A stretch of DNA of 63,671 nt from positions 1 through 63,671 of the IMG/VR virus record IMGVR_UViG_3300042894_002234; one strand, 5' to 3'. The number at the start of each line of letters is the position of its first letter. The first letter of the stretch is position 1. The notes below the pieces were generated by a model that worked only from the letters and a program-made list of their open reading frames with translations, searched no databases and had not been told where the DNA came from. The DNA is from a virus. This document shows positions 8,506 through 50,900 of the stretch, in pieces. Both the position numbers and the translations under genes were made by a program.

Positions 8506-8511
8506 ATTTAC

Positions 8512-8536
8512 GGGGTTGTCTATAATGGGCAACCCC
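8512..8536 (+). terminator. GC-rich hairpin after the VWA gene (terminator or 3' stabiliser)
   Basis: GGGGTTG (8512-8518) pairs with CAACCCC (8530-8536), six bases after the stop at 8505. The downstream sequence CTATTTAAA is only weakly T-rich, so termination efficiency is uncertain. Confidence 0.6.
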
Positions 8537-8549
8537 CTATTTAAACCAC

Positions 8550-9680: not shown

Positions 9681-9690
9681 CACATATAGT

Positions 9691-11262: not shown

Positions 11263-11399
11263 CAAGAGTTGAAAGACTAATTGAATGGGTAGAAAATCTT
11301 CCTGTTCAAACATTTACTGAAGAAATGAAGCAAGATATCATTACTGAAATTGAATATGCTTTTGCAGATTGTACAACAGATGACATGTTAGATGAATAA
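11259..11399 (+). CDS. Small hypothetical protein (46 aa)
   Basis: A short ORF starting in an ATGA overlap with the previous gene and ending inside the first codons of thyA. The peptide begins M-T-R-V-E-R-L-I-E-W-V-E and ends D-D-M-L-D-E, an amphipathic helix with an acidic tail. Its coupling on both sides supports expression. Function unknown. Confidence 0.45.
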   Translation: MTRVERLIEWVENLPVQTFTEEMKQDIITEIEYAFADCTTDDMLDE

Positions 11400-19250: not shown

Positions 19251-19271
19251 TCATTAGAATTTTATAAATTT

Positions 19272-19298
19272 GGGCGGGCACTAACACCCGCCCTTTTT
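19272..19298 (+). terminator. Strong intrinsic terminator after SSB
   Basis: GGGCGGG (19272-19278) pairs with CCCGCCC (19287-19293), loop of 8, followed by TTTTT (19294-19298). It is the most GC-rich short stretch in the plus block. The next gene begins 12 nt later, so that gene needs its own promoter or relies on read-through. Confidence 0.92.
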
Positions 19299-19309
19299 AT
19301 TTCAATATT

Positions 19310-20263: not shown

Positions 20264-20691
20264 GCTGGATATATAAAGGAATGGTATTTACTGATGAAAT
20301 GATACCAGATGATGCAATTGGATTCATATATAAAATGGATACAACATATGAAGGTAGAATAGTTAGTTACATTGGTAGAAAGAATTTCTTTACTGATGCA
20401 AAAGCAAAAATTCTTAAGAAGAATCTACCTAAAGATAAACGTAAGAAGACATATACTAGAGTAAGGAAGATGACATATCAAAATTACTATAGTAGTAACT
20501 TAGTACTGAAGAATTTACATAAAGAAGGTTGTCCTATACGTAGGGAAATACTTAGGATATGTCATTCTAAAACAGAACTATCTTACTATGAAACTAAGTA
20601 TCAATTTGTACATGAAGTGCTTGAATCAGATGAATGGTTAAATGGTAATATCTTAGGAAGATTTTATAAACAAAAGAAACATGACAGATAA
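20260..20691 (+). CDS. GIY-YIG endonuclease-like protein (SegE-type)
   Basis: 143 residues. G-F-I-Y-K (20-24) and S-Y-I-G-R-K (37-42) give the GIY and YIG strands, followed by Y-Y-S-S-N, R-E-I-L-R-I-C and Y-Y-E-T-K-Y-Q-F with the later Glu. The layout matches phage 'putative endonuclease segE-like GIY-YIG' proteins. Overlaps with both neighbours (4 and 11 nt) suggest a resident operon gene rather than an inserted homing element. Possible roles are DNA nicking, repair or host DNA breakdown. Confidence 0.75.
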   Translation: MSWIYKGMVFTDEMIPDDAIGFIYKMDTTYEGRIVSYIGRKNFFTDAKAKILKKNLPKDKRKKTYTRVRKMTYQNYYSSNLVLKNLHKEGCPIRREILRICHSKTELSYYETKYQFVHEVLESDEWLNGNILGRFYKQKKHDR

Positions 20692-32300: not shown

Positions 32301-35300
32301 ACATATTCAGGATCAAATCTATCAGGATATTTAGTTAAAAGTTGAGCTTCAAATAAACTTCTAGCTTTTTTAAATCTATAAATAGGCATGCTTTCAGGAT
32401 CCTCATCAGACTCCCACTCAAAATATTTCTTTCTCTCAGTTCTATATTCTAATAGTGTTTGAGTGATACCCATTTCATCTCCTGTTTTGAGATTACCATC
32501 ATTATCATATTCACTAAATAGCTTTTTATATTCTACCCAAAGAGTATCAATCTTAATTCTATTATCAATTTCAATTCTTTCTAATTCATTATCAATTAGT
32601 TTAACACCATTATTAATGTCTTCCATGATTTTATCATATCTCTCCCTGGCCATTTTACCAATTTCAACAGTAACTCCTGCATCATTTACATAAGTCTTTT
32701 TAAAGACATCATAAATTTTATAAACTTCAGGTTTCCATTTGTCATGCATGTATGTTCTTTTCCATTCTTGACGTTCAACCTCAAGAGTTGATGCTAATTC
32801 TGTATCACCACTTTCTAGTGCAGCATCAATATCATATTTAAATTTTGATAATACTACTTCATATCCTTTAAACGGATTTAAGAATCTATGAACCTTATGA
32901 GTTTTAAACTCACCAGTTTTAGGATCTTTATAACCTAGTTCTTCAGTATATGTAATTATTTTACCAAGTTTAGATACTAATTTAAAATCATCTAGACCAG
33001 CGTCTTTTAAAAGTTTTCTAGTCTCAGCTAAAAAATCATTAAAGTTTTTAGTAGCATTAAGTTCTACATCAATTAAAGCTTCTTTAACATATAAAGCAAA
33101 ACTTGATATAAGTTCATCTGGACTAGATACAGCACTCTCAACTAAAATACTTAAACCTAAACCTGATGGTTCAGGAGTTTTTCCTGATATAACTCTAGCT
33201 AGAGTATTTTCATCTCTAATATAACTATCTCTTTCTCTTTCTTTAGCAGCAATTTGTTCAGTAGTTGCACCTCTAGCAACCATTTCAGCAATACTTTTAT
33301 CAAATTCTTTATTAAGAACTTCATTAATGCCCTTCAAATGCGGTGCTAAAATACCTGGTATTGCTGCTTCATTTTGTGCATAAACAGCAGTCATACCAAT
33401 TTTAGCATTATTACTTGCTTTATTTAATAACTCAAAAACAGGACTAGATACACTAATACCTTCATCTACCATTTGTTGTTTAATCTCATCAAAAGTTTCT
33501 AGAGTTTGACTAAGATTTTTTAAGAAATACATATTCTTAGAAATAGTCAAAACTGAATCAACATCTGATCTAGATCTATTAATTTCAAGAATAATTTTTT
33601 CAATAGAATCATTGTAAGATTGTAATGAAAGAACTAATGCTTCAATTTGACTTTTTCTATAGTTGACTAAATCTAAAGGAGCTTCGTTTGTCTTAGTATA
33701 AGTTTGATACTTAGATAATGTAGATGACTCTTCTTGAAAGGGAGCTTCTAATTTTTCTTTTGAAATACTTTCTTTAAGTCCAGCATGTCTTTTTTCAGCC
33801 TCCTTCATGATTTGTTTACCAGAACCAATAAGTTTAAACAACTTATCAATGTTACTCTGTAACAAAGTATCACTAGCTTTAGCCATAAGATCCTTAACAG
33901 AATCTTGCATAGTATTAAAATCAGCTTTTTCTGATTCTGTAATTATCTCTGAACTAATTTCAAAAGAATCATTATTAAGCATTTTAGCAAGCTGATCAAG
34001 ATTAGTATTTGCATTTAACTTATCTATTTTAATCTTACCAAATACTTTACGCATTAGTTGTTTAATAGCATACATGAGTTTATCTATGAACTTAGTAAAC
34101 TCAGTACTCTCTTGAGCATTTAATTCATTGTTTCTTGCTCTAGTAGTTAATGCTCTTACTAAAACCTCTTCTTTAAAATCCTCAGAATTTTCATCATACT
34201 TATAGTACTCTTTTACTGTTCTGATGATTTCCTGACCTTCCTGCGTTTGCGAGAGGGTATCAAAAAGTTTATTAAAGAGAGTAGGGTTTGTTTTCTTAAT
34301 AGCCTTGATAAAAGGGTGACTAAATTCATGGAATACGTTTTCTAAGTTAAGTTTGTCTTTAATAAAGTATACCTGACCATTATAAAAGAATGCAGGTTGA
34401 CCATTATATTTTTCTTGAGTTTCTGATAGTAAGCTTATAGCATCTACTTCTGTAATAAGATTATAAGGTACTCCTCCTAAATTTCTAGAAAGTCTTTCTG
34501 AAATTTGATCTAATAGTTGAGGTGCAATGTTCTCATCAATATCATGCTGTGTTTCATTAAACTGAGCTGATGAATTACTATTCTTAGTACCGTATCTAAC
34601 AAAGCCACCAACTAAATCATTTACTTCTTGTTCGTTTAATGTCTTACCTGTAAATTGTTTAATCCAGTTTGTAATATTTTTAATGAGTTGTTTCCACCAT
34701 GATGGTTGAGATTTATCTACTAATGTTTCTGCCCATCTAGCAGTTAACTCCATTAGTAATTTTATTTTACCATCTCTTGTGTTCTTATTGAAACCATAGT
34801 CAAGTAATAAACTATCTAAATTTTTGTGACCTGTTCTTTGTAATAATTCAGGCAACTTTTGCATTAACTGTTTTTCAGCAGCAAATAAAGCAGAAGCTAG
34901 TTCATTTACTCCTCCTAATTCTTTTGCCATTCTTAACATACCTCTATGAGCTACTTCGTGTATTGCTACTTTAGCTGCTTCTTCTATAGGTGTGTTTGAT
35001 TCTACTACTACTACTTTATCATTATTAGCATCATAATAACCTTGAATTAGATTATTATTAGTTTTAGAAAAAGGTAATTCATCAATTAATCCTTCATTAT
35101 ATGTATTCCAAATTTCTCTCAATCCTTCTATATTTTTACCTTCATCAGATAAATATTCAAATACATAAGGTGATTTTTCTACTGCTATTCTAGCAAGTTC
35201 ATTATAATATGGAGCATCTATATTTATATGTTTTATATTATGAGAATGATTTTCAACTGCTTGTCTTGCTAAATCTTCATTATTTTTAAATTCTGGAAGA

Positions 35301-37444
35301 AGAACATCAAAATGTTTTAATGCTAAATTTAAATTTTCATTTACTTGTTGTAAAGTAACTAAACCTACTACAATATCTCTTTCTTGATAATAATTATTAA
35401 TTTCATCAGCATCAGCATACTCAGGTCCCAATTCAAAATAATCAGGTGGATCATTTGGATACCCATCCATATCATAACCTTCACCGTATGGATTATATGG
35501 ACCATCTGGTTCATCATAATAAATATTATTATTTTGACGATCTTCAATTACATCATCGCTTATACCATTATCTCTAGCATTTATAGCTCTTTGAATGGTT
35601 TGATTATTTAAATCTAGATTATGTTTTTCAAAAAAAGCTATTGTATCATCTAGATGATCTATAGAAGCAGTACCATTATTAGCTCTTGATGTAACTTCTT
35701 TTACTTTTATTTTACCATTAGTTTGTTGAATTTTTCTTCTTTCTAATTCTTCTGTATCGTAGAAAAGAGCATCAATTTCTTCATCCTCTTGCTGAGTATC
35801 AGGATATGCTTCTATACCAGCTACTGTTACACCATTAACAATTAATAAATAGTTGTCATAATTTTCTACATAATGTTCTGTCATAGAACTTGCTGTACAC
35901 CAAGTATGAGGAGATAATTTTCTAAGGAGTTCTACATTTTTTTTAAATGCACTTTTTTCTTTATCCCAGTCTTCTGGTTTATAAGTTTTAAGATCATTTT
36001 CAAGTTTATTTAACTTTTCTTCTGTCTCTTTTATTTGTTTTTCTATATAGTCTTGATTATAAGATTCAATTTGACTTTCTAGTTGATATATTCTATTTTT
36101 AGCATCAGCATCATATGCACTATATGGATAGTCTTCTACTTCTTTTTCCCATAACTCTTCTGCTTGTTTTTTGGTTATAGGTACAATTTTAGTAGATGGT
36201 CTTCCGTTTTCTGTATTATATCCATGAATATAGTAACCTTCATAATTTTGTCCTAATTCATTAACATGTGGTTTATTATCTTTATTCCATCTTGAATAAG
36301 TACTTTCAGTTCTTACATAATCGTATTCTTGAAATCCATATTTATTAGCATCTGTTCTACTAAGATTTATTTCCTGTTTAAAAAATATTTTTTCTTTACT
36401 TTTTAATTCTTCTAGTTCATTAACTAAATTATTATAATAATCAGGTTTTTGTTTTTGTTTTAAAATTTCTAAGTAGTCATTATTTTGTTCAATTACTAAT
36501 TCTGTACTATCCTTAAAACGTTCATAACTATCATATCCTAAAGTATTTCCAGAAGATGTTCTTGGAACATGTACCCAATATCCATTACCACTAGCAGAAG
36601 GTTCATGACCTATAGCATCAGAAACAGACGCTAAAACTTCTTGATCATATAATTTACCTAATCTATTAGCTTCATTAGGTTTATTCATTAGAATACCATA
36701 TGTATTTGTTAAAGCTACTTTGCTTAATTGTAATACATACTTAGCTCTTCTATTTGGATTATTTAGATATTTAATAGCATGTGTTAACATTATATCTTGA
36801 AAGACTAATGGATAATCTGCTAAGGCTGCTTTCCATTCTCTAAAGCTTTCTAATGCTAATGGATTAAACTTAAATTCTAAATATTTATTTTCATCTAGTT
36901 TTCTATTATAAACTTTTTCAATTAACTCTTCTATTTGTTTTGTACTTGTAATGTATTTAGGATGTCCAATTCTACTTTTATTGATACCAAGCCAATTGAT
37001 TAATAATGGATCTGTAATACCATTTGCATAAAGAACATCTTTCATTGCAAATGAAATACCATCACTTCCTAATATTTCATCAGGAACAGTACTTACAATT
37101 TCAATACTATTGAATATTTCTATTGGTAATTTTTTAATCTCATTTTCAAACTCAGGATTGACTACACTATTTTTTCCAAAGTATTTTTCTGGATGCATGA
37201 TATAGTCATATACCTGATAGTTAATCTCATCGTTTACATCATATATATTTGAAACAGTATCAATTTCCTTTAGATAATCAATTGTTTGTTGAAACTCATC
37301 TGTAAAAGTTCCAGCGTATTCTAATAGTGCTTCTTCTTCACTCATAGTATTTCTAATACTTTGATATAAAATAGAAGGTTCATTATTACTAGCTAGTACT
37401 CTTTTTACAGTACCGTTATCATTTCTAATTATTCTACAAGCCAT
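29324..37444 (-). CDS. Giant virion/ejection protein (2706 aa) with two zincin motifs
   Basis: A multidomain protein. A W-C-T-A motif (515-518) with following strands marks a domain recurring in large phage polyproteins. Two H-E-x-x-H motifs follow: H-E-V-A-H (829-833) and H-E-F-S-H (1039-1043), the latter with K-E-E-V-L-V about 40 residues later as in gluzincins. Residues about 1130-2000 are charged coiled coil. The C-terminus has a strong membrane helix (about 2545-2562, L-L-T-I-L-S-A-L-I-P-M-L-F). It starts 2 nt after the polymerase gene. The set matches the giant cargo proteins of crAss-like phages; membrane passage and host-protein cleavage are inferred. Confidence 0.8.
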   Translation of the reverse strand: MACRIIRNDNGTVKRVLASNNEPSILYQSIRNTMSEEEALLEYAGTFTDEFQQTIDYLKEIDTVSNIYDVNDEINYQVYDYIMHPEKYFGKNSVVNPEFENEIKKLPIEIFNSIEIVSTVPDEILGSDGISFAMKDVLYANGITDPLLINWLGINKSRIGHPKYITSTKQIEELIEKVYNRKLDENKYLEFKFNPLALESFREWKAALADYPLVFQDIMLTHAIKYLNNPNRRAKYVLQLSKVALTNTYGILMNKPNEANRLGKLYDQEVLASVSDAIGHEPSASGNGYWVHVPRTSSGNTLGYDSYERFKDSTELVIEQNNDYLEILKQKQKPDYYNNLVNELEELKSKEKIFFKQEINLSRTDANKYGFQEYDYVRTESTYSRWNKDNKPHVNELGQNYEGYYIHGYNTENGRPSTKIVPITKKQAEELWEKEVEDYPYSAYDADAKNRIYQLESQIESYNQDYIEKQIKETEEKLNKLENDLKTYKPEDWDKEKSAFKKNVELLRKLSPHTWCTASSMTEHYVENYDNYLLIVNGVTVAGIEAYPDTQQEDEEIDALFYDTEELERRKIQQTNGKIKVKEVTSRANNGTASIDHLDDTIAFFEKHNLDLNNQTIQRAINARDNGISDDVIEDRQNNNIYYDEPDGPYNPYGEGYDMDGYPNDPPDYFELGPEYADADEINNYYQERDIVVGLVTLQQVNENLNLALKHFDVLLPEFKNNEDLARQAVENHSHNIKHINIDAPYYNELARIAVEKSPYVFEYLSDEGKNIEGLREIWNTYNEGLIDELPFSKTNNNLIQGYYDANNDKVVVVESNTPIEEAAKVAIHEVAHRGMLRMAKELGGVNELASALFAAEKQLMQKLPELLQRTGHKNLDSLLLDYGFNKNTRDGKIKLLMELTARWAETLVDKSQPSWWKQLIKNITNWIKQFTGKTLNEQEVNDLVGGFVRYGTKNSNSSAQFNETQHDIDENIAPQLLDQISERLSRNLGGVPYNLITEVDAISLLSETQEKYNGQPAFFYNGQVYFIKDKLNLENVFHEFSHPFIKAIKKTNPTLFNKLFDTLSQTQEGQEIIRTVKEYYKYDENSEDFKEEVLVRALTTRARNNELNAQESTEFTKFIDKLMYAIKQLMRKVFGKIKIDKLNANTNLDQLAKMLNNDSFEISSEIITESEKADFNTMQDSVKDLMAKASDTLLQSNIDKLFKLIGSGKQIMKEAEKRHAGLKESISKEKLEAPFQEESSTLSKYQTYTKTNEAPLDLVNYRKSQIEALVLSLQSYNDSIEKIILEINRSRSDVDSVLTISKNMYFLKNLSQTLETFDEIKQQMVDEGISVSSPVFELLNKASNNAKIGMTAVYAQNEAAIPGILAPHLKGINEVLNKEFDKSIAEMVARGATTEQIAAKERERDSYIRDENTLARVISGKTPEPSGLGLSILVESAVSSPDELISSFALYVKEALIDVELNATKNFNDFLAETRKLLKDAGLDDFKLVSKLGKIITYTEELGYKDPKTGEFKTHKVHRFLNPFKGYEVVLSKFKYDIDAALESGDTELASTLEVERQEWKRTYMHDKWKPEVYKIYDVFKKTYVNDAGVTVEIGKMARERYDKIMEDINNGVKLIDNELERIEIDNRIKIDTLWVEYKKLFSEYDNDGNLKTGDEMGITQTLLEYRTERKKYFEWESDEDPESMPIYRFKKARSLFEAQLLTKYPDRFDPEYVKKLQEWDDMNTRKVIDKQFYVDKALIIEKINAIYNSLSGSFAEDSKIVEKTKEYWNLIIDQLYAYRDEENHPNGILVSKEKIAKIKEAQEKIQELQDMIKNGNGLSRGEAREYRELKDLSESGRDLTQKQLEDLEQFEIRSSISTIPKGVKQDLKMLYDELSSLQSKKATDYYLEVYNHQIDLHNNRQTAKGLPITVKHFDRFDIDDLARERGFVESMIKKDPEFEEWFMANHNEVERWDDELQMRVKRFERLFLWNQIEPRDPKYVKSMNWKETDKHVHIWGLPSLAYYKQNIKPEFATEEILGVTVDNKEQYLPRLDVPNSPYINQAYFDLKDNNEGAFNILEKIKEFHLKFQEKAPASDKLYMDVPRYEKTSKELTETNKFLSSQGSAAKIAIKNFVNKFRPNAEDTDEGLGIEDKFKLTKLDFFDEDEQKIHISGKTLMDDDQVSLDVITSVLRHMHSIERASKLSEIEPIAKGLMQLLNDPKNQPKDTTKASWYHWITHKIPVFANKRGENIRAKAIKGLIDRTFYNVQQTGFGSDALVLQKLSKVMMQAASFGFFALDIPSGVKNRFGQQLQQAIELAAGTSYDGKSFLKGKMIASKAMMQISGSIYSKGKLPYYAQLVNAFDPSQGMAMEKLPEYITRSIYKDVASPTNILMSPRKFMEIEATLEYFFGVMEFTKVEQTINGVTTEIPYHEAFELVDDRLTLKEGIDEKWGLGGSEFKRKRIFIQEKQNILNGVYSKFDQPEGNRYLFYRMFMFLRKFFITGMVNRFGFSGSLFAPRFRRNNASQTLEMGYWIQSARALSKMLVTYGKHWHYMRPSEKGAVYKALTEIALLTILSALIPMLFGWDGDDDDKYEKLRERQGGPLGSKDFKAFGWLANHLLYQTMSVASENSQYYKVGFYSDMLSNFNLANGPSLQTYGKILGDVIMMVQGDDSAYYSKDVGPYSWQKAESAKILNHIGKAFALTGKTIDPSKAIQDFVSAENIYK

Positions 37445-37446
37445 GA

Positions 37447-40400
37447 TTAAAAATTACAAGAGTTATTTAATTCGTCTAAGATAGCATGAGATTTTATTCT
37501 AATACTATTGATCACATCTGTTGATGTTAAAAAAGAATCACTATTCATCATTTCACGAATAGTAAGTTTACTACTGCCTTTGTCAAAACCTGGATTTCTA
37601 ACATTGAATTTTTCAAATAGTGCTTCAGATAATTGAGCAGTTCCAGCATCATTCATTCCTTTAAGTCCAGACACAGGTATAATAACTGGTCCAGAAAACT
37701 CAGCATTTTTAATTTGTTCAGGAGTATTAAAGGTTGATACATTACTTGCTTTAACTGTAACTGGAATTTTATCACCTGATGTAAAAATAAATAATTTATC
37801 ATCATGTGTCTCAGCCAATTTCAAAACTGTATTTGTAAAATATTTAGGATCCTTTGATTTAGTTGCTTGTTCTCTAATCAAATCTATATCAATTAAATAT
37901 AAGAAATCATTTACTTTCTTCAAAGTATTATCTGATGGTATTACATTTTCATATCTAGTTACTGGTTCAGATACACCTTGTGATACATATTGTTTATTTC
38001 TATTAGAGCTATCAGATGAAAAACCAGGTTTCTTTGAAAATTTTTCTGTTCCACCTGCTCTAACAAGACCTAATCTATTCTTTAAAAACTTCTCAGTGAA
38101 TGTGTTTATATTTCTTTCAACAACAGAATAATCAGGATTATTCAAAATTCTATTAGTAGCCTGCTTAATTTTTTCATTATTAGTAAAGCTTAGAATCTTT
38201 TCTTGAGATATAATAGAATTTAATGAATACTTAGTATTTGAACTAAATCCACTAGATAATATTACATAGTACTGGAACTTTTCAAAGAACTCAGATATTG
38301 CTTTATTAACATGTATATCATCATTTTTAATAACATCAATGTTAGCTAATCTATTTAGTTCTTCATTATAGTTAGTTGTAGTATCTGCATCAGGTTTACC
38401 TTCTTTAAATACTAAATTAGTAATACCAGATTCCTTAGAATAACTTGTAGTCAAAGCATCAAGAATAGTATAATCTTTCTTTAAATATGAATATTCAGGA
38501 TCTCTTAACATATTCATTAGTTGTATAGCATATCCATTATTAGGATCTTCCATATATGAATATGAATTAAGAATATTCTTTAATGCTTTATTAGTAATGT
38601 GATCTTCAACTACTTTAAGTTGTAAAGCTAAAAGAACATCTTTATTTAATATATACTCTTGATACTCATTTCCTTTAAGTTTCTTTAAATTTTCATATAG
38701 TACTTCTCCTGTTGAAGCATCTACAAAATCAACAAGCCCGTATTTGTTTACTTCAAATGTACCAACAGTATCATTTATCTTTTTATTTTCACCAATATCC
38801 GTTCTTAATTTTTGACTGCTAGCTGTAAATAAAAATTCTTTTTTAGTTTTAATTATATTAGATAGTATCTTATCAAAATTAGTTATATCTGTAGATTTCA
38901 ATATACTCCTTTGATATTCTCTTTCCATTACAAAATGTACATACTCACTGAAGTTATTATTGAATGTTTTAGGACTCATTTTAGTTAAAGTATAACTTGT
39001 GTCCTCTGCAGTCTTAACTAATATAGAGTAAGCACCTGTATTGTTATTAGAATAATCTCCATTTTTAAACTGTTCAGCTAATATTTCCATATCAACATAC
39101 ATCTTATCATCTTGAATAAAGACTCCTGTAGGAATGTATCCTGGAATATTAGTTCCCTTAGTGGGAACTTGTTCTACTTTAGTTGATTTTGGTGATACCC
39201 ATCTTGAATAACCATTGAGTTTTTCTTCAGTATATCCTTTTTGTTCTAAATATTTAGCAACAGTTTCATCAGATAAATTACCTTTAGAATATTGATTACC
39301 TATTCTAAAAGAAGCACCAGCCTCTATAGCTTTATTTAATAAAGGTTTATATTTTTCAGATAATGTTTTTTTAATTGCTGCTGCTTCTTCAGTTTTATCT
39401 ACACCACCTCTACCAAAATTACCGCTACCTGATACCATGATTGTATCATTAGCAGTATATTCTCCAGTATTAGCTTTGTTACCCCAAGCTTTAGCATATT
39501 TATCTGTAGAAGATACATTACCTTCTTTCATTATAGTACCGAATCCAATAAACTGAGTAGATTCAGATGCCATCTGAATATCTTTAGCAGCATTACCAGA
39601 CATATCACTAGGTTTGATTCCTGCTTCTACTAATGGATTAGTAGATTCTTGAGTAGTAGGTTCTTCATACTTTTTAGAATTAGTTAAACCACTTACTCCT
39701 GCTCCTCTATCTACTAGTTCTGTAGCAATACCCAACTTAGTTTGCAATTCATTCTGTAACCATTCTGCAAACCTTGTAGGCAACTTAGCTTTTTCCATTG
39801 CAAAACCACCAGTAGGAACTATAATTCTTTCATACTTAGAATTAACAATATTGTTTATTAATTCAGTATTGAGTTCTTTAAACTTAGTAAAGTCTGCTTC
39901 AGAATTTGTAAAGTTAGCTCCAGCTTTCTGCATCTTCTTTGTTACAATAGCTAATGCATTAGGATTTCTTTCTCCTTGTTTATTAGTTCTAATAACAGCC
40001 TGGGTTGTTGATACATTATAATCAGTACCTAGTTTTTCTGCATTCTCAGTAAAAATGAAACCATACTTTGGATAGTCTTCTGGAGTTTCCTTAGTGTAAT
40101 TCTTTTTAGCAAAATGTAGTTTATCAGTAGGTAAAGACTTAGTTGCTTTTTTATTTACAACTCTGTCATATTCTTTACTGTTTACATCAACTATCTCATA
40201 ACCTTTATAAGCTCCAGTTTTAGGATTAAAATCTCTTAATGCTGTTAAAGTAATAGCTGTTGTAAAATCATTTTTATATTCAGATATTAATTTATCATTT
40301 CCACCAAAAATTTCTTTTACTCTATCATATATATTAGAACCAAATACTAAACTGTTCTTATAGAAATTCAATAGATACTTATTTAAGTTAGGATGATTTC

Positions 40401-43400
40401 TAACTTTAAACATATCTCCAAACATCTCCATTTGCATTTCACTGACATCAAAGTTGTGAAGAATAGTATCATTATATAATGCTTTTAATTTATCCTTTGG
40501 AAATATCTTAAGAACATTTGCCTCATCTTCATCCTCTTCTATAATACTATCTTTCTTTACAGTTCTTGCATAAGCATCATACATTGTAGTAGATGTCTTA
40601 GTATCAAAGTTTAATGCAGATTTGATTTTAAATAGACCATTTGCAACATCTAATATTTCTAAAAAGTGTGCAAATACAGCCATATCTGTTTCATTACGTT
40701 GCCATGCAGGATCTAAACTAGCTTCTAATCTATCTTTTAATTCCTTTTCAGTTATATTCTCAATTCCTTTTGTAAGGTCTATAATCTCATCATATAATTT
40801 ATGACCAGTAGTATATTGATCTAAACCTAACATTCTAGTTTTAAGTTTAAATTCATTCTCTGGTAAATTATTTTTAACTACTACTTCACCTTTATCATTT
40901 TGTTCTAATTCTTGAGATAAAGCAGCTAACGGGCTTTTCATTTTCTTAAGAGTATCAAAGTACTCTCTTACTAATGGATTAGCCAAGAAATACACAGCTT
41001 GTTTAAATGGTACACCAGCTTGAACTAAATACAATAAAGATGGTGATGCTTCAGGAGTACCCATTACATATGCAATCCAAGGATCTTTAGCAACATCTAC
41101 CCATCCATTAATCAACTGATTAATTAAATCTGAGATCTTAGTACCTTCTGTATTAAATATATTAGATAGAGATATATTACCATTATTCATTTTATTATGG
41201 TTTAATAGTAGTCTATTCTTTCTTGTTTGATATACAAGTTTACCTGTTTTTTTATCTGTTCTACTGTGCTCAAATGTATCATTTAGATACAAACCAACTT
41301 GATTGAATAGTGCATTGTAAGCATTATCTACAGCACCTATACCTAAAGCTTTTTTACCAACTGAGTTAGAGAATTGCTTATAAATATTATATCTTGTTTC
41401 AAATATTTTAGTAGGAGATACCGATCTTGTTTTAACTTTTTTAGCAGGATCTGTTTCTAAATCATCAATGAATTTCATAGATTCAGGATCCTGATTAAAA
41501 TTCTTCTTAGGATTATATGATTTAGCAAAATACTTAAGCATCTCTTTAGACAATGGTTGTACTAAGTCAGTATCATTAGGTCTAATTAATGCTGCAGCAA
41601 TCTCAGGAGCAGATAAAATATTTATGATATCCTGAGTAATATTATTTTCCAATCCAGCATTACCTACTGTATCAAGTTTAACTACTGATTTATCTTTACT
41701 TAAAAAGATATTAGGAAAGAATATAGATAACTTATCAATATCAAAGTCACCACCTGACTTACTTACAATCTGTGTTGGTGGAACTACAATGTTACCTGCA
41801 GACTCATCTAAGAATTCTGCAACCTCCATCATTTCCATTGAATTAAATCCTTGAACTGGAATACGTACACCAGTAAGTCTAACCATTGCACCATATTCTT
41901 TCATCCATTTTGGATCTTTCAATGCTAGATTAAGACTCTCTCTGTCTCCAATAACTTTACCATTATGTTTTAGATATAGTAATTTCTTAAACTGTCCTTG
42001 CAATGCAATTTTAACTTGCATTGGTAATGTATTACCAGTATCAGGATCCTTTCTATAAGTCTCAAGTTCATCATATCCATATTTTTCTGCTTCCTCTTTT
42101 GAAACACCTTTCATTCTTTGCATTTCAAAACCTGATACTGCTGCTTGAACTAAAGGTTCTCCATTTACTTTTCTTCTTACAATTCTTTTATTTACAATAG
42201 ATAATAATATCTCTTCAATGTTTTCAGCATTTAAAGCATAAGATAAATCATAAGCAAATTTGCCATTTTCAATTTTGGTAACCGCATCTTGTAAATGTTC
42301 AGGAAAATCTCTTCTAGACATTTCCTTTTTAATAATCTTAGCTAAAGATTCTGCATTAAACTTACCATCTTTCTTAAGTTCAATCTCATCTCTTAATTCT
42401 TGTTTATTAAAATCAATATATTTCTCAATATTTTTTAAATATGATTTTACTAATCTTTCAACATTAGGAGTTAAGGGAACACCTTTTTCAAATAACTCAT
42501 TAATGATTAATTTTCTCATTTGAGTAGAGAATACTACTTCTCCTTTAAACTCATCATTAATAGATACTTGATTACGTAAAAACTTAATATTGATCTCATT
42601 AACAATAAAAGGTGCATCAATAGGCATCGCTGTTCTTGTAGCAAGATCTGAATATAGATTATCAGATTTACCATCTGCATAAGTTCTTGTAGCAGTCTTA
42701 GAACCAGATTTAAATGTAGCATAATGTACATTATCATTCATCATACGTTCATGAAGTAGTTCTAGATTTTTACCTTTAATTACCTTTGGTATAAGTGGCA
42801 TTAATGAAAACTTATGAAGAGCATTTAAATGGTACTTATCAGTTTTAATAGGACCATAATATTGATATTTTCTAGGTGGAAAATACTTCATTACTTCATC
42901 TATACCAATTTCTTTACCTTCTACAATCTTAAGATAAAGATCCTCTTGAGATTGAGACCATTCATTGGATAGTTTTGCTAGCATTCTATATGCATCAAAA
43001 GTTAACCAACCTTGACCATCACCTTCTTTTATTTCATCTGCAAAATATTTCTTAATTGATTTAGCAACTTCTTCATCCACTCTATCTGTTAGTGCTTTAC
43101 CTTTTAGACCAAATGCAGTAAAGTCTTTTGTATATTTTTCTTTAAAGGTATCTGCATATTCTGCAATTAGTTTATCATTCTGAACTTGAATATCATTAAG
43201 AACAGCAGTTCTTACAATACCATCTTTGTCAATTCCATAACTGTTATATCCACGTTTGCTAGCATACTTATTACCAAATAGTTCATTATATCCTCCTATG
43301 ATTTCTTTGTCACTCATAAAAGTTCTACCAGTAGAACCAGCAGAAGAGTTACGTTTATGAAATTCTTCTTTTAATAAATTGTATGCAGAAATATCACCAT

Positions 43401-46400
43401 AGAATAGAATTGTAGATTCTACAAATGATACAAAAGTATTAGCACTATAAGCTCTAACTAATCTATCTGCTTTTTCAGCATCAGACATTTTTAGTTTACC
43501 TGCAGCAGGTTTAACTAATTTGCGAATACTATCTTGATCAAGATATTTCATCTCATCATAAACTTCTTTATTTTGAGAAGTTAGAAATGTCAAGTAAGAT
43601 GATATCTGTTGTTGTAATGATTTATATAAATCACTGTCTTTTGAAAGATTTGCATAGTCTTCAACAGACATGTCATATAACATGTTTTTTTGTTCTGTTG
43701 TTAAGATATCATGAAATATCAAAAACTCTTTTCCTTGATTTTTAAATTCAGGAAAGAAATCTAAATCTGATATAGTATTATTTCTAATGTCTTGTACTCT
43801 TTCATGCTCTGCAGTTAAATAACCAAGCATGATATCAACAAATTTATCATCTGCTGATGGTACATCTTGTAAATATTCTAATGGATTTATAAAATGTGGA
43901 TTATTACCAGTATGGAATGCTAATGCCATTTTCTTATCAGCAGCTCTAGGTACTTCTATATAACCATTATTAATATATGAATAGAAGTCTATATAGAATT
44001 TGGTAGTTGGATCTGTATCAAGAATAGAAACAGAAGTAACATTAACCCCATCTTTATCTAATTGTATACCAGAAAAGTTACTAAGATTTAAAGTATCTAT
44101 TCTGGAACCTAAACTATCTCCAAATAGTTTTTTAAACATTTGAGAATGTCTAACCATTGGATTTCTAGTAGGATTATAATGAGCAAACTCGGGCTTATTA
44201 TAAAAATCAACAAAATTGTTTACTTCGTTAATACCATTCTTTGTAATAGTAATAGTGTTGTTAAGTATGTTCTCATATTGTCTATTACCTTCAGCATTTA
44301 GTAAACTAAAAGTACTAACTATATCTTCTACTTTAAGATATGATTCAATAACTGTATTGATTACATTAGATTGATTTTCTCCTTTTGTATTTGTTAAATA
44401 GTTAATATGATCAGGAATAAGATTAGTTGATACCCCTTTGTTAGTATATGCTAATAACATTTTATATACAAACTTAGCACCTACTAGCACAGTTGTGTTA
44501 GTTAGTAATTCTTTATACTCTTCTGACTTACCAACAGGAATACCAATAGCTTTATAAAATTCAACTGCCGTATTAAATTTAGCTTTATCACTTGCTTTGT
44601 TATATTTATCTCCAAAAGCATCATCAAATCTATCAATCAACTTTTGTTTATCTATTACTCTAGCACCACTATGGTCCCTTGTAGTTATTGGATTTAGCCT
44701 ATCAAAAGCAAATTCTTGAGCAAATTTTCTTTTAGTATTAGATAGATCTAATTTACCTTGTGTGTTATATAGAGTATAGCCAAATTCTAAATTTTCATAA
44801 TCTGATTTCTGTTCTAGTCTAGTAATGATTAATGGTAATGATGTAGTATTAAAACTATTAGCAAATAAGATCCAAGCATTTAGAACCTCTTTATTCTGTA
44901 CAGCTTCTCCAATATTAATATTACCTAGTTTAGATAGTAGTTCAGCAATTTCATAAGAACCATTGCTACTCATTTCTTCAAGTGTACGTTTAATAGACAT
45001 TACACCAGAATTGTTATTTAAGTTTCTTATAAGAGTTCCTAAAGTTTTATTGAATTTAGTTAGCTTAGGAAAACCTAAATCATTCATCTCTACCTCACCA
45101 TTTGAATCATATTGTTTTAATGTTCTAATTAAAAACAATACTTTTTCATTAGCCATATCTTCAAATGAAACTTCACCATTCTGTTGTAGCTCTTTTTGAA
45201 TTTGTGAATCTAAACTAAAATTATTTTCATCATTATCATCTAATGTTTTAGTTTTAAAATCTAATAACTTAGAGCGTCTAAGATGGTATGAAATAGTTGT
45301 ACTATCGTTTAATCTTTTGTTATCAATCGTATCATTAATATCTCCAAAATCATCAATAGCAGTTTGCAATACACTTAAAGCATATTCGTTTTTATTTACA
45401 TCTGTACTTAAATCAACTATTTTTTCTTCAATGATTTGTTTGATATTAGTATATAGATTTTTGATTGATTGACTAGAACTTAAAAATTCACCAATTAATA
45501 TTCTTCCTCTTTCTTTAGAAAAATTCTCTAGTATATTAGATAGAATGGCATCCATAGAATCAGATACCTCATTTGATTGAGCTATTGTTAACTGATTACC
45601 TTTTTCTGCAGAACCAATAGGTGATGCTAATGAACCAAACATAATGTTTGCTGCATTAGGTTTCTTATCTAATATTTTACCTCCAGATAAATTATCATAT
45701 AGTCTTTTTACTTCTTTTAATGAATTAAAATCTATTTGAGTCTGTTCATATGAAACATTATCAAACAACCAGTTTAAGAATTTAAGAATCTTAGCAAAAA
45801 CTTTATTAGTTACTGGTCTTTGTCCAAAGACTTTAGTTCCGTTAGATAACTTATATTGTCTAAAGTCCTCAGCTAAAAATTCTTCTATTTGAACAGGTTT
45901 AGCATCTGAGAATTTAATTCTTCCACCTCCTGGTAAAAGAAATGTTCCAGACATTTTTCCAATCTCTCTATATAAATTATTCTTTTCATCTTTTGTTAAA
46001 AATAATTGAGAAAAACCATGCCAAGCTTCATGATACAAATCTGTATAGTTAGAACCATAATATAAAATTATTCCTGTTCTACTCCAAACAGCTTTTGCAT
46101 TTGAATTCATTGTTTTAAACATTGGTTCAAAAGGAACTACACTTCTTAAGTATTCATTTTCCTCAGAGTTATACCAATCTAATGCAGCTTGCTTTTGTTT
46201 TTCAGAAGCTTCAGAACTCATGCCCTTTACCTTCATCAAACTTTCAGGATCTATATTCCTAATAATTTTATCAATAGCACTTGGTTTTTTAGATGGTAAC
46301 TCTGCACTCTTTTCTAATCCTAATTCTTTTTTGGTATCAGGATCAATCTCAAAATTTAGATAAGAATTAAATAGTTGGACTTTACCATCATCATTTAATG

Positions 46401-47913
46401 GCACTGGTGTTCTAAGAACCTCTTTCCAAAAATTATAATGTTCTTCTCTATTTACAATAGCTAGTTTACCATTCTTAATTCCATAGTAAGATGGTGCTTC
46501 TTTTTGATAAGTTAACCAAAAACCAGTTTTGCTTGTACCACCTGTTTTTAAAAATTCTATTAGTCTTTCTGTATTCTCTTCTTTACTCCCATTATTTACA
46601 AAACTTTCAAGAAGTTTTTCTAAATCATTCTTATTACTATTTGATAATGCTAAGTGTTGAGCTAAGAATTCAAAAGCAACATTAATGTTATCAGATGTAT
46701 AAATACTATCAACTGATGCTTTACTAAAATCCTTTAGTTCTGTATCATTTAACTTTCTTGTAAATAGATTTATAGTACTACCAAATAATGTAATATATCT
46801 ATTAGCTTTATTTCCTAAAGTATCATAATTGATTTTAAAAAAAGGCATATCTGCAGTAATCTGTCCTAATGTTGTTGGAGCAGTTTCATAGCTTAATGTT
46901 TTTCCTTTTTCAAAAACTGGAAAGTATCCTGGAGTTCCTCCTGTAATATCAAGAACAATTTTTTTGTTTTCAAATACACCCTTTTGTATTGCTTTTAAAT
47001 TTGCTACACCATCAAGAACTTTACGCATAGCTTCATCTTCAGAAATATCTTGATTTTTAGCTATTTCTTCAACTGACTGAATACGTCCTCTTGCAATATT
47101 ATCATCTAATAGATCAAAGCGTGTATCTCTCATTTGGAAATACACCATCCTACCTTCAGGATTTACTGAGTAGTCATTATTAAATTTTAATATTTTACCA
47201 TCATTATCAGTTATAACTAAAGCAACTGTTTCATCTTCATCAAGTCTTCTTTTTATTTCTTCTTCAGAAAAATCTCCTTCTTTTAAAAAATCATAAAGTT
47301 CCTCAAAAGGAATCTCTGACATTTTGATTGCTGTTAATCTAAAACCAGTATGGTTCTTAATTGTAATTGTAGAACCATCATAACCAGTAAGATTATTTAA
47401 TAGAGCTCTATTGAAACCATGATACCAAGTTTTCTTAGGATCTACTTTTTGAGTAGAACTATCTACTCTTTCATCAGGCCCAGTTGTTGAATTTGGATCA
47501 TTACTTTTTGCTTGAAATATTTTCTGAGTTTTATCTTTTGGTGATATAATCTCATCAACACTTACTTCAATAGTTTCTTCAACTTCTTTTTCACTTGTTA
47601 ATCCTAATTCCTTTGCTACATTTTCTAATGTACCAAGTTCAAATTTCTTAGGTAGTATTGATAATGCCATCAATACATCATCTTTAACAAGATTATTTTT
47701 TTTAGATCTCAGTAGATACTCTTGAATGTATCTGGGCATTAATTGAATATAAGATAATGCTGTTGCTGGTGTTTTGCCAGCTTTAATAAACTTATCAAAT
47801 AAGTCATTCATATGTGTAATATGAGAATAACTATTTAAATCCTCTTGAGCTGCAATATATCTAGCAATTGATTGATATAATTTACCCTGTTCTTCTTTAT
47901 TAATACAAGCCAT
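37447..47913 (-). CDS. crAss-like virion RNA polymerase (3488 aa) with DFDID motif and extra domains
   Basis: Residues 2056-2060 are D-F-D-I-D, preceded by R-I-P-V-Q-G and V-S-K-S-G-G, the metal-binding signature of the crAss-like virion RNA polymerase (phi14:2 gp66 type, related to two-barrel RNAPs). The phi14:2 enzyme is about 2180 residues, so this one is much longer. The N-terminal part carries a zincin motif H-E-A-W-H (628-632), with a possible downstream Glu in E-E-F-L-A-E-D-F. After the core, about 2700-2840, two blocks recur in large phage polyproteins (L-P-T-R-F-A-E-W-L; I-G-F-G-T-I-M-K-E-G). Expected role: packaged, ejected and transcribing early genes. Confidence 0.9.
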   Translation of the reverse strand: MACINKEEQGKLYQSIARYIAAQEDLNSYSHITHMNDLFDKFIKAGKTPATALSYIQLMPRYIQEYLLRSKKNNLVKDDVLMALSILPKKFELGTLENVAKELGLTSEKEVEETIEVSVDEIISPKDKTQKIFQAKSNDPNSTTGPDERVDSSTQKVDPKKTWYHGFNRALLNNLTGYDGSTITIKNHTGFRLTAIKMSEIPFEELYDFLKEGDFSEEEIKRRLDEDETVALVITDNDGKILKFNNDYSVNPEGRMVYFQMRDTRFDLLDDNIARGRIQSVEEIAKNQDISEDEAMRKVLDGVANLKAIQKGVFENKKIVLDITGGTPGYFPVFEKGKTLSYETAPTTLGQITADMPFFKINYDTLGNKANRYITLFGSTINLFTRKLNDTELKDFSKASVDSIYTSDNINVAFEFLAQHLALSNSNKNDLEKLLESFVNNGSKEENTERLIEFLKTGGTSKTGFWLTYQKEAPSYYGIKNGKLAIVNREEHYNFWKEVLRTPVPLNDDGKVQLFNSYLNFEIDPDTKKELGLEKSAELPSKKPSAIDKIIRNIDPESLMKVKGMSSEASEKQKQAALDWYNSEENEYLRSVVPFEPMFKTMNSNAKAVWSRTGIILYYGSNYTDLYHEAWHGFSQLFLTKDEKNNLYREIGKMSGTFLLPGGGRIKFSDAKPVQIEEFLAEDFRQYKLSNGTKVFGQRPVTNKVFAKILKFLNWLFDNVSYEQTQIDFNSLKEVKRLYDNLSGGKILDKKPNAANIMFGSLASPIGSAEKGNQLTIAQSNEVSDSMDAILSNILENFSKERGRILIGEFLSSSQSIKNLYTNIKQIIEEKIVDLSTDVNKNEYALSVLQTAIDDFGDINDTIDNKRLNDSTTISYHLRRSKLLDFKTKTLDDNDENNFSLDSQIQKELQQNGEVSFEDMANEKVLFLIRTLKQYDSNGEVEMNDLGFPKLTKFNKTLGTLIRNLNNNSGVMSIKRTLEEMSSNGSYEIAELLSKLGNINIGEAVQNKEVLNAWILFANSFNTTSLPLIITRLEQKSDYENLEFGYTLYNTQGKLDLSNTKRKFAQEFAFDRLNPITTRDHSGARVIDKQKLIDRFDDAFGDKYNKASDKAKFNTAVEFYKAIGIPVGKSEEYKELLTNTTVLVGAKFVYKMLLAYTNKGVSTNLIPDHINYLTNTKGENQSNVINTVIESYLKVEDIVSTFSLLNAEGNRQYENILNNTITITKNGINEVNNFVDFYNKPEFAHYNPTRNPMVRHSQMFKKLFGDSLGSRIDTLNLSNFSGIQLDKDGVNVTSVSILDTDPTTKFYIDFYSYINNGYIEVPRAADKKMALAFHTGNNPHFINPLEYLQDVPSADDKFVDIMLGYLTAEHERVQDIRNNTISDLDFFPEFKNQGKEFLIFHDILTTEQKNMLYDMSVEDYANLSKDSDLYKSLQQQISSYLTFLTSQNKEVYDEMKYLDQDSIRKLVKPAAGKLKMSDAEKADRLVRAYSANTFVSFVESTILFYGDISAYNLLKEEFHKRNSSAGSTGRTFMSDKEIIGGYNELFGNKYASKRGYNSYGIDKDGIVRTAVLNDIQVQNDKLIAEYADTFKEKYTKDFTAFGLKGKALTDRVDEEVAKSIKKYFADEIKEGDGQGWLTFDAYRMLAKLSNEWSQSQEDLYLKIVEGKEIGIDEVMKYFPPRKYQYYGPIKTDKYHLNALHKFSLMPLIPKVIKGKNLELLHERMMNDNVHYATFKSGSKTATRTYADGKSDNLYSDLATRTAMPIDAPFIVNEINIKFLRNQVSINDEFKGEVVFSTQMRKLIINELFEKGVPLTPNVERLVKSYLKNIEKYIDFNKQELRDEIELKKDGKFNAESLAKIIKKEMSRRDFPEHLQDAVTKIENGKFAYDLSYALNAENIEEILLSIVNKRIVRRKVNGEPLVQAAVSGFEMQRMKGVSKEEAEKYGYDELETYRKDPDTGNTLPMQVKIALQGQFKKLLYLKHNGKVIGDRESLNLALKDPKWMKEYGAMVRLTGVRIPVQGFNSMEMMEVAEFLDESAGNIVVPPTQIVSKSGGDFDIDKLSIFFPNIFLSKDKSVVKLDTVGNAGLENNITQDIINILSAPEIAAALIRPNDTDLVQPLSKEMLKYFAKSYNPKKNFNQDPESMKFIDDLETDPAKKVKTRSVSPTKIFETRYNIYKQFSNSVGKKALGIGAVDNAYNALFNQVGLYLNDTFEHSRTDKKTGKLVYQTRKNRLLLNHNKMNNGNISLSNIFNTEGTKISDLINQLINGWVDVAKDPWIAYVMGTPEASPSLLYLVQAGVPFKQAVYFLANPLVREYFDTLKKMKSPLAALSQELEQNDKGEVVVKNNLPENEFKLKTRMLGLDQYTTGHKLYDEIIDLTKGIENITEKELKDRLEASLDPAWQRNETDMAVFAHFLEILDVANGLFKIKSALNFDTKTSTTMYDAYARTVKKDSIIEEDEDEANVLKIFPKDKLKALYNDTILHNFDVSEMQMEMFGDMFKVRNHPNLNKYLLNFYKNSLVFGSNIYDRVKEIFGGNDKLISEYKNDFTTAITLTALRDFNPKTGAYKGYEIVDVNSKEYDRVVNKKATKSLPTDKLHFAKKNYTKETPEDYPKYGFIFTENAEKLGTDYNVSTTQAVIRTNKQGERNPNALAIVTKKMQKAGANFTNSEADFTKFKELNTELINNIVNSKYERIIVPTGGFAMEKAKLPTRFAEWLQNELQTKLGIATELVDRGAGVSGLTNSKKYEEPTTQESTNPLVEAGIKPSDMSGNAAKDIQMASESTQFIGFGTIMKEGNVSSTDKYAKAWGNKANTGEYTANDTIMVSGSGNFGRGGVDKTEEAAAIKKTLSEKYKPLLNKAIEAGASFRIGNQYSKGNLSDETVAKYLEQKGYTEEKLNGYSRWVSPKSTKVEQVPTKGTNIPGYIPTGVFIQDDKMYVDMEILAEQFKNGDYSNNNTGAYSILVKTAEDTSYTLTKMSPKTFNNNFSEYVHFVMEREYQRSILKSTDITNFDKILSNIIKTKKEFLFTASSQKLRTDIGENKKINDTVGTFEVNKYGLVDFVDASTGEVLYENLKKLKGNEYQEYILNKDVLLALQLKVVEDHITNKALKNILNSYSYMEDPNNGYAIQLMNMLRDPEYSYLKKDYTILDALTTSYSKESGITNLVFKEGKPDADTTTNYNEELNRLANIDVIKNDDIHVNKAISEFFEKFQYYVILSSGFSSNTKYSLNSIISQEKILSFTNNEKIKQATNRILNNPDYSVVERNINTFTEKFLKNRLGLVRAGGTEKFSKKPGFSSDSSNRNKQYVSQGVSEPVTRYENVIPSDNTLKKVNDFLYLIDIDLIREQATKSKDPKYFTNTVLKLAETHDDKLFIFTSGDKIPVTVKASNVSTFNTPEQIKNAEFSGPVIIPVSGLKGMNDAGTAQLSEALFEKFNVRNPGFDKGSSKLTIREMMNSDSFLTSTDVINSIRIKSHAILDELNNSCNF

Positions 47914-47923: not shown

Positions 47924-50900
47924 TTAATTATTGCACAAATTTGGATCTTCAGATCCATTAATCATATCATCATCATTTGTATCATTCATAGTTTTATCAA
48001 GTTGAGCAAAATCCTCCTCAGTAAAACTAATATTCATTTTTTCAATATTATTCTTAGCATCTGCATTATCTACTTCATCTATTTTTATAGCTTCAGTTTG
48101 ACCTTGCGCAGGAATAACACTTATTAAATTATGAAGATTACTACGTTTGAGAAATGTACTTTCCTTTGGATCATATTCTAAATCATATGTATCAGGATCT
48201 CTCATTTTTATTATTTTAGTTTTGTGTTGTTTACCAGTCTCTTCATTTAATATTATGACTGTATCACCTGGTTGCAAGTTACTAAATAATAAATTTCTTG
48301 CATTTAAATATGTCATTTTTTTATCGAATGCTTCCATCACTTCTTTAGACTGTTTACTAGTAATGTATTTACCTAATTCAATCAATTGCTCACGACTAAC
48401 AACTTCATCTATAAAAGGAAGAAGATCATAGTTACCAGTTAATAATTGAACTAATGAATTCTGATCAACTGATAAAACTAAATTATTTTGATCTTGTTTA
48501 GTCTTAAGACTCTTTAGATAAGATTTAAGAGAAGTATCTGTTATACCAGGATTCTTTTTACGAATAGCTTCTTTTGATATATCTTCATTATTAGCTTTAA
48601 TACTATAATCCGCACTAGAAATAAAAGCTACTGAACCTGTCAATACAGTCTTACCTTGTGCAGCTAAAGCTTGTGCTTTTTTAAATGCACTAGCATAACG
48701 TGTATCTTTAAGAGCTCCAAAGTTTGGATTTTTTACCCCATACATAGAGAATACAACTTCACCAATATTTTCTGGTGTTGCATTTTCAAAGCCTGGATCA
48801 TTTTTAAACTCTTCATATAGTAATACATCCATATCAACAAATTGATCTGGATACTGTTCTACTAAAGTAGTTTTACCTAAACCTGGAGAAAAGTAAATTA
48901 TCTTTCCTTTAAACATATTGTCTAATGGAAACTCTTCTTTTACTTTTTGTTTTTCTTTTTCATTAACAAACTCTTCATAGCCTGAAAAATCTTCATAGCT
49001 TTCGGGCTCTCCTTGAAACTCAAATGGGTCTTTCTCATATTCTTCAAAACTAGTTATAACGTTACTAAGTCCTTCTGTTACAGATTCTAAATCTAAACCA
49101 AATTGTAATGCAAAATCATCAATTAGATTTAATAATTTTTTATTATATGCATTATCTGCTGCAACTTCTTTATATGTTTTTTCACTAATACCATTTGGAT
49201 ATCTCTGTATTATGTCCACTATCAAATACATGATATCTTGTGAATCATAATTTGGAAATCCATTTTCAGCTACTTCTTGCTGTATTAAACTAGAAAAAAT
49301 ATCTAATGTATCTATGGAACCTAAATCATTATTAATCCATTTTTTAAGATTTACATCAGTTAGATTTCCAGATAATTCATTAGTATCTCTAAACTTTCTA
49401 TTAACTAATTTAGAAATAAGAAGAGTATCCAAATCTACATAAGTAGTATTGGAATTTTCCATACCCTCTTCATAATATTGGTATAGATCAGTTATATATT
49501 CTTTGACAGCTTCTCTACTATTATCACTTATAATTTCAGTATACCATAATCTTAGTAGATTAGGTTTCTTAATTAACTCCTTACCGTATTTAAGAATCTG
49601 GTTTAATGATTTTACTTCTTTACCTTTCTTATTAAAGAATCTCCACTTGTTATCTCTTTTATCTAAATAAGCTTTAATGCTTTTAGAAATATTAAACTCT
49701 AACGTAAAATTATTTGATTCTTTTTGAAAATCACTTAATTCCTTTTTAGTAGGCTCTTCTTCTTCACCAATTACTTTAGCTTCAAAAGCTTCAGTTTTTG
49801 CTACAAATTCATCTCTTTTAACATTAATTGCAGTAAGTATATCAGGGGTCATTTGATCCACCGCATCAATTGAATCCATTATTTTATCTAGTTCTCTTGA
49901 TGATGTAGATTTATTAATTAATGATTTCCATTTATCAGTATTGTCTTCAACTTCAGTTTCTACTACAGGTTGTTCTTCAGTTGGTTGAATACCCATTGCT
50001 TCAGCATATCCTGGAGTATCTTCTAGATTCTCAGGAATAGTGACTTCTTCAGTAGGTGTTATAGGTGTTGGTCTTGTATCTATTTCAATAATAAGATTAC
50101 CATTTTCAATCCTAGTTACAATATTCTTTTCGGGATATTGTTGTCTAAGTTTTTCTATATCTGAATCTATTTTTTGTCTTTGTTCTGGAGTAGCTCTAGA
50201 TATACTAGAGATAACAGATTTACCTGATGTAAGTAAACCAGCTTCTATTATTTTTAATCCTTGATCTGTAGCTAAACCAGTTACAAACTGACCTAATAAG
50301 TCAGCAGGAGTTGCAGGTACAGGAGCAGGTTGTTTTTCTGCTGCAATTATACGTGCTGCTCTAGGTGTTTCTAAATACTCTTCAAAAGATTGAGTATTTT
50401 TTTCTGGATAAACTTCATAGTCAGCTACTAGTTTAGCTTTAGTCTCTGGTGTATATACATCAAGAGCCTTTTCTTTCTCAGCTACTCTAGCAGCTTCAAC
50501 TGCTTCTTCTACTTTTTTAGCAGCATCTTCTCTAGCTTTTATAGCAGCTGCTTCTTTCTCTTTAGATACTCCAGTTATATCTTCGTATTCTTTAAAGATC
50601 TCTTTTATTTTTGCAATGTCTTCAACATCTGTTGCATTTACTTGAGATAAATCTTTAACTCTATAAAAAGTTTTTACATCTTTTTTACCTCCAGATATAT
50701 TATAGGCAACCATTTCTTTTGGTTCACCTACAAAACCTGCATCATATAACTTTTGAAATACTCCATTTAAACCAATCTTTCTTAGATAATCATCAATTGA
50801 TTTTTTAATTAGATCTTTTCTATTTGTATGCATTTTCTTTAATGCATCATACCTTCTTAAAGATTCATTTCTTAAAAAATTAGGATCTGCTATTACAGCA

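Follow-up and report, generated by a model that had tools for sequence, protein, structure and literature searches.

A crAss-like virion RNA polymerase with a zincin-like module, an accessory slot, and terminal cysteines that may chain it to neighboring cargo proteins

The IMG/VR window analyzed here, a stretch of 63,671 bases of viral DNA, contains an open reading frame (ORF) of 3488 residues. The ORF raises the question of what so large a protein is and, if it is part of a virion cargo, how several megadaltons of folded protein pass through a narrow tail with the correct order and stoichiometry. Translation of the window confirmed that the ORF proposed in the original prediction at 37447 to 47913 is real and placed it on the minus strand. 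The window is laid out as in crAss-like phages, which are among the most abundant human gut viruses. Its giant genes occupy the minus strand, and the plus strand carries replication genes, including those for a DnaB-like helicase and a DNA polymerase of PHROG 1252. The gene encoding the 3488-residue protein, referred to here as P0001, sits in the giant-gene block, divergent from the replication genes and flanked by the genes for P0003 and P0002 (Table 1). P0001 contains a single DxDxD motif, DFDID at residues 2056 to 2060, and a single HExxH motif, HEAWH at residues 628 to 632; the codons of both were verified, and the DFDID position agrees with the original prediction. The conservation of both motifs among relatives, described below, exceeds what chance would produce. 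Scans of the whole giant proteins against Pfam, PHROGs, and NCBIfam gave almost no matches. Two weak matches, of P0002 to arginine deiminase and of P0003 to DUF1838, were set aside.

Table 1. Features of P0001 and its neighbors, in coordinates of the window
Feature	Coordinates	Strand	Basis or remark
P0001, crAss-like virion RNA polymerase, 3488 aa	37447..47913	-	Homology and model
P0001 N-terminal region, residues 1-540	46294..47913	-	Found only in closest relative L002
Zincin-like metallopeptidase core, residues 605-720	45754..46101	-	Alignment, profile across relatives, fold comparison
HEAWH codons	46018-46032	-	Third ligand, E in EEFLAEDF
Middle region, residues 860-1560	43234..45336	-	By position, N-terminal part of phi14:2 gp66
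RNA polymerase core, residues 1550-2600, with two 6vr4-like double-psi barrels	40114..43266	-	Alignment, profile, model
DFDID codons	41734-41748	-	Verified
Variable-slot domain 1, DUF7831 (PF25176), residues 2603-2714	39772..40107	-	Pfam; 7/55 vRNAP tails
Variable-slot domain 2, residues 2750-2930	39124..39666	-	Absent from L002, homologue in L117
Conserved C-terminal vRNAP segment beyond slot, residues 3100-3290	38044..38616	-	Matches to relatives
P0001 Cys3 (TGT), head cysteine	47905..47907	-	Codon verified
P0001 Cys3486 (TGT), tail cysteine, third residue from end	37456..37458	-	Codon verified
P0003, upstream cargo protein, 1889 aa, position of phi14:2 gp67	47924..53593	-	Without N-terminal cysteine
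P0003 Cys1887 (TGC), its sole cysteine, third from end	47933..47935	-	Codon verified
P0002, downstream cargo protein, 2706 aa, position of phi14:2 gp65	29324..37444	-	HExxH at 829, 1039
P0002 Cys3 (TGT), head cysteine	37436..37438	-	P0002 without tail cysteine

P0001 had been predicted to be a virion RNA polymerase (vRNAP), and each line of comparison bore this out. A tblastn search with its polymerase region returned 127 phage records, mostly named crAss-like or Crassvirales and also including Flavobacterium phages such as Fpv3, and matched phi14:2 gp66, annotated as a catalytic RNA polymerase subunit, with an E value of 2e-15. We fetched the vRNAP loci of relatives from IMG/VR with a degenerate DFDID pattern and aligned 48 cores. 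DFDID was invariant in all 48, with R..P located 37 to 39 residues upstream. The invariant columns were R468, P470, G505, and DFDIDK, and this conserved block (R..P, G-DFDID-K) is present in P0001. When a profile composed of P0001 residues 1550 to 2600 and 47 relatives was searched against the PDB, the single convincing entry was 6vr4, the phi14:2 vRNAP gp66 (E = 3e-116). An AlphaFold2 model of the same residues (pLDDT 82.7, pTM 0.85) matched 6vr4 at an E value of 2e-30 in Foldseek and with a Z score of 21.5 in VIA-align (rmsd 3.4, 829 residues), in which the next matches were the two-barrel RNAi polymerases QDE-1 and RDR2. The presence of two double-psi barrels in a single chain, including around residue 2056, where their lack would have spoken against a polymerase, is supported by this superposition on 6vr4 rather than by direct inspection of the barrels. 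The identity of P0001 is secure because the invariant DFDID block, the profile match, and the model superposition coincide: homology and modeling establish it as the catalytic subunit of a crAss-like vRNAP.

The place of P0001 in the virion can be judged from its homologues. Giant RNA polymerases of this kind are carried in the particles of crAss-like phages of both gut and marine origin and are presumably injected into the host cell. phi14:2 gp65 to gp70 are annotated from virion tandem MS (MS/MS), phicrAss001 virions contain gp47, gp49, and gp50, with about six copies of each suggested (PMC10172136), and virion packaging and early transcription have been shown for relatives (PMC7886860, PMC10172136). 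By analogy with phi14:2 and phicrAss001, P0001 is probably packed in the virion as well. The original prediction also singled out its length relative to the phi14:2 enzyme. The difference is true (3488 versus 2180 aa), but the size is ordinary, as relatives reach 4096, 4289, 4551, and 4949 aa; judging from these ORFs, large size is common among crAss-like vRNAPs and not special to one phage.

Two observations on relatives concern the polymerase core. L002 has a 150-residue insert behind DFDID, which reads as a coiled coil; an intein was considered and rejected, and the insert gave no intein or other convincing Pfam match. The RNAP gene of cr108_1 (L004, 15458 to 15749) is broken at the catalytic motif (IVAKAGSD / LYDIDKMY), which suggests that an intron or another insertion interrupts the active-site codons.

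Two further domains had been predicted behind the catalytic region, and two were recovered, one as DUF7831 and the other, at residues 2750 to 2930, as a domain lacking a Pfam match, with a homologue in the vRNAP tail of L117. Both lie between the polymerase core, which extends to about residue 2580, and a conserved C-terminal segment that begins at about residue 3100. The length of this slot, taken from the spacing of matches, is about 125 residues in several relatives, about 520 in P0001, and about 1,150 in L002, where a DprA-like match, a weak 2OG-Fe(II) oxygenase match, and a NADAR domain stand in place of the second domain (18695 to 20632). Among 55 vRNAP tails, DUF7831 was found in 7, a superfamily-1-type helicase in 5, a 2OG-Fe(II) oxygenase in 2, and NADAR and a zeta-toxin-like kinase in 1 each. 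An RNase H match was also seen in one of the 55 tails. As far as sequence comparison can tell, the region behind the polymerase core is an exchangeable accessory slot, and it is plausibly used against host defenses.

HEAWH belongs to a module that recurs in relatives. The histidine and glutamate of HExxH and a glutamate in EExLAE 49 residues further on were invariant in 19 aligned relatives, and the downstream glutamate ligand corresponds to alignment column E149. HExxH with a downstream glutamate is the gluzincin arrangement. Of the 40 vRNAP ORFs long enough to extend 1750 residues or more upstream of DFDID, 38 carried the motif on that side (30/32 in the first set, 8/8 in the second). HEAWH had been placed about 1400 residues before DFDID; the distance is 1428, compared with 1304 to 1777 (median, 1471) in 36 relatives of the first set. 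The second histidine is replaced by glutamate (HExxE) in 11 of 36 copies; P0001 keeps both histidines. HExxE marks an entire sub-lineage whose metal site seems partly degenerate or altered and in which catalysis may have been lost. Because about a third of the copies are of this kind, peptidase activity cannot be assumed family-wide, and the processing of the polyprotein or of host targets suggested in the original prediction would be a candidate role. The catalytic and downstream glutamates are retained in the HExxE copies, including those of L012, L013, L034, L080, L085, and L090.

The structural model of the module was weak overall (pLDDT 56.9), with values of about 85 to 90 in the core around the motif. 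Foldseek with this weak model found no match at an E value under 0.5, Pfam searches of the zincin alignment gave chance matches only, and a PDB sequence search did likewise. A second look at the weak model with VIA-align returned zincins for nearly all of the best 38 matches (Z scores of 5 to 6.4), with Pro-Pro endopeptidases (PPEP), the lethal-factor family, and ArdC at the top; unrelated chains scored 4 to 4.5. We hold with moderate confidence that HEAWH lies in a zincin fold, which conservation and the model support short of proof. The predicted fusion of a zincin to the polymerase stands as a conserved motif with zincin-like structural matches to a weak model, but it is not special to P0001. 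In phicrAss001 this domain ends a different virion protein, gp47. Fusions of zincins to N4-like vRNAPs were reported by Iyer et al., who suggested a number of processing or effector roles for them (PMC5512222). Fusion of a zincin with a vRNAP is a known theme, carried here by a polymerase unrelated to that of N4. P0001 is an ordinary member of a well-characterized kind of protein in a group in which zincin fusion is common; it documents a vRNAP with both a zincin and an exchangeable accessory-domain slot, and alone it would be unremarkable.

Other HExxH motifs occur in the downstream proteins: HEVAH at residue 829 and HEFSH at residue 1039 of P0002 and HEIMH at residue 245 of phi14:2 gp65. In L001, a near-identical contig, the P0002 counterpart (3353 to 11444) consists of two overlapping ORFs with a break near residue 490 to 500, either a frameshift or a real split.

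The part of the analysis likely to surprise a specialist lies at the ends of these proteins. The vRNAP tails could not otherwise be aligned, yet almost all of them closed with a cysteine. The 3488 residues of P0001 include just two cysteines, C3 and C3486, the 1889 residues of P0003 just C1887, and the 2706 residues of P0002 just C3 and C516. The replication-side proteins of the window contain 1.35% cysteine. The pattern is cleaner still in phi14:2, where gp67 has only C1797, gp66 has C3 and C2179, and gp65 has only C3. Along the series, a terminal cysteine occurs at the tail alone in the first protein, at both ends in the middle one, and at the head alone in the last. Of the 74 RNAP ORFs in the first set, 51 had no cysteine except the terminal one. 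In the pooled nonredundant set, 32 of the 38 next proteins that were complete (out of 78) had exactly one. The tail cysteine is 1 to 7 residues from the stop, and most tail codons are TGT. The residues flanking the terminal cysteines vary among relatives, so that no docking interface is recognizable. Several internal cysteines are present in some gut lineages (cr131_1, cr6_1). The ejected proteins gp50 to gp52 of N4 (L179) and gp15 and gp16 of T7 (L180) have zero cysteines, suggesting that proteins undergoing unfolding for ejection avoid this residue.

If the two ends of a junction belong together, a cysteine on one side should predict a cysteine on the other. At nonredundant RNAP/next-protein junctions pooled from diverse crAss-like phages, both cysteines were present in 76 of 78 and neither in 2, and a single cysteine was never found; random placement of the same cysteines would give 0.013 paired junctions, although these counts cover many related loci and are not independent events. 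Predictions had been fixed in writing before 44 further loci were fetched and the count was repeated. A head cysteine was present in 15 of 17 next proteins in these held-out loci, and the other two cases were also without a tail cysteine. At the upstream junction, both cysteines were present in 13 of 13 clear split cases and neither was present in 10, and the RNAP had a head cysteine in none of the 10 cases in which its upstream neighbor was without a tail cysteine; crAss002 and cr107_1 agree. The pattern follows the way in which the genes are divided. In the Intestiviridae, the upstream protein ends with a cysteine and the RNAP, which starts MSC, is the last link and is without a tail cysteine. 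In the Suoliviridae, the upstream part is fused and there is no head cysteine, and the tail/head pair with the next protein is present. Additional members of the series in L031 (396 aa) and L145 (859 aa) carry cysteines at either end, and each is followed by a protein that begins MAC or MKC. phicrAss001 obeys the rule with gp50/gp49 on the opposite strand and far from gp47, a layout that rules out a gene-end nucleotide signal as the source of the cysteines.

Several apparent exceptions could be accounted for. The RNAP of L127 is split; L076, L157, and L150 are short fragments; in L135 the RNAP is the last link and its head cysteine is present; and L041 has two overlapping ORFs resembling one frameshifted gene. 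In L007 (crAss002 gp33), the annotated start appears to be 32 residues early, and Cys35 aligns with Cys3 of cr107_1 gp41, which starts MSC. L148 and L167, with long ORFs that contain no cysteine, stand as apparent exceptions. The terminal-cysteine rule holds across the sampled crAss-like phages and Fpv3 and covaries with gene splitting. It is not mentioned in the literature retrieved on crAss together with disulfide or cysteine, a scope outside which the phi14:2 structure paper and the original genome survey fell.

The conservation of cysteines exactly at the facing ends, against a cysteine-poor background, suggests a bond between neighbors. We propose that the capsid would hold P0001 together with P0003 and P0002, both giant proteins, and that ejection alongside the DNA would bring P0001 into the cell for early-gene transcription, as the phi14:2 and phicrAss001 systems lead us to expect. 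Cysteine depletion would suit proteins that are unfolded and threaded through a narrow tail, and the cysteines retained would be those at the facing ends of the series P0003-P0001-P0002. Each tail cysteine would be joined by a disulfide to the head cysteine of its neighbor downstream in the series, so that the virion cargo would be a single covalent chain, exiting with its order and ratio fixed and coming apart by reduction in the host cytoplasm. In fused lineages, the peptide bond would take over the linking, and the cysteine pair is absent there.

Our best explanation of the locus as a whole, a crAss-like vRNAP with a zincin and an accessory slot in a disulfide-chained ejected cargo, has a probability of about 0.6. 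For the specific claim of a head-to-tail disulfide-linked cargo released by host reduction, the odds appear roughly even; the bond, its timing, and its function are what we infer from the sequences. We would stake about as much on the broader idea that the transcription machinery is a train of separate giant proteins, otherwise cleared of cysteine and coupled by single terminal disulfides, that would be drawn through the tail in order and uncoupled in the reducing cytoplasm of the host, with fusion and disulfide as interchangeable evolutionary solutions. Phages assemble in a reducing cytosol, and many of the hosts are anaerobes, so disulfide oxidation would have to come late. The second cysteine of P0002, C516, and the internal cysteines of cr131_1 and cr6_1 count against a chain. 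Inter-subunit disulfides have been resolved in the phicrAss001 virion, and equal copy numbers of gp47, gp49, and gp50 have been suggested (PMC10172136).

The main rival to a disulfide chain holds that P0001 is an ordinary vRNAP and that the terminal cysteines are not links but a packaging or sorting tag, carried as free thiols or another modification and read by a portal-bound cargo protein. A tag would account for a feature common to non-homologous cargo proteins and for the loose sequence context of the cysteines, and tags are frequently terminal. However, the first protein is without a head cysteine and the last without a tail cysteine, in all clear cases a cysteine at one junction end is matched at the other, and a tag acting per protein has no need for two ends in the middle protein and one in the outer proteins. 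We consider this reading rather unlikely, as a chain better accounts for the asymmetry of the outer members.

Still less probable is a reading in which the zincin frees the polymerase by cleaving the polyprotein, either inside the capsid or once it has been ejected, with the cysteines incidental, because incidental cysteines would not obey the junction rule. The zincin-bearing N4 vRNAP is packaged uncut (PMC5512222), roughly a third of the crAss-like copies have HExxE in place of HExxH, and the phi14:2 polymerase works without a zincin in the same chain. In favor of such cleavage are the conserved HExxH plus glutamate, the fold matches of the weak model to zincins, and the proposal of such a role for polyvalent-protein zincins by Iyer et al. 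(PMC5512222). Zincin processing and a cysteine chain are not mutually exclusive. An artefact of chance, shared ancestry, or a gene-end signal spelling TGT/TGC, for which the relatedness of the loci and the prevalence of TGT in tail codons might speak, is contradicted by the data and highly improbable, given the excess of paired junctions over random placement, the varying distance to the stop, the non-adjacent opposite-strand partners in phicrAss001, and the independently added links that obey the rule.

The cysteine-pair rule offers a concrete and cheap test of the coupling mechanism, and published mass spectra of non-reduced phicrAss001 virions may already hold the answer. If a disulfide chain is confirmed, it would represent a new viral way to build a deliverable, self-releasing protein chain.

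Among known systems, phi14:2 gp66 shares with P0001 the catalytic core, DFDID, and two barrels, and the gp67-gp66-gp65 gene order and the tail, head-plus-tail, and head cysteines are those of the window. It differs in having 2180 aa with no zincin and no DUF7831 in the chain; an HExxH is found in gp65 instead. The RNAP polyproteins of the Suoliviridae (cr118_1 gp14, cr4_1 gp26, cr1_1 gp76) have, as here, a tail cysteine followed by the next protein's head cysteine, and in cr118_1, for which this was shown, a zincin-like motif precedes DFDID by a similar distance, but chain members 1 and 2 are fused into one protein of 4400 to 4950 aa with no head cysteine. phicrAss001 gp47, gp50, and gp49 are alike in the cysteine rule, the zincin, and their detection as virion proteins by mass spectrometry, whereas gp47 ends with the zincin and the genes for gp50/gp49 run on the other strand. 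The N4 vRNAP gp50 (Schitoviridae) is also a giant ejected RNA polymerase with a zincin and no internal cysteine; unlike P0001, it is an unrelated single-subunit (T7-like) polymerase with the zincin behind the polymerase and no terminal cysteines. The polyvalent proteins of Iyer et al. (2017) are likewise large multidomain proteins that are injected and that combine zincins with exchangeable effector domains; crAss phages are unmentioned in the text of that study, and the core described here is instead a two-barrel RNA polymerase.
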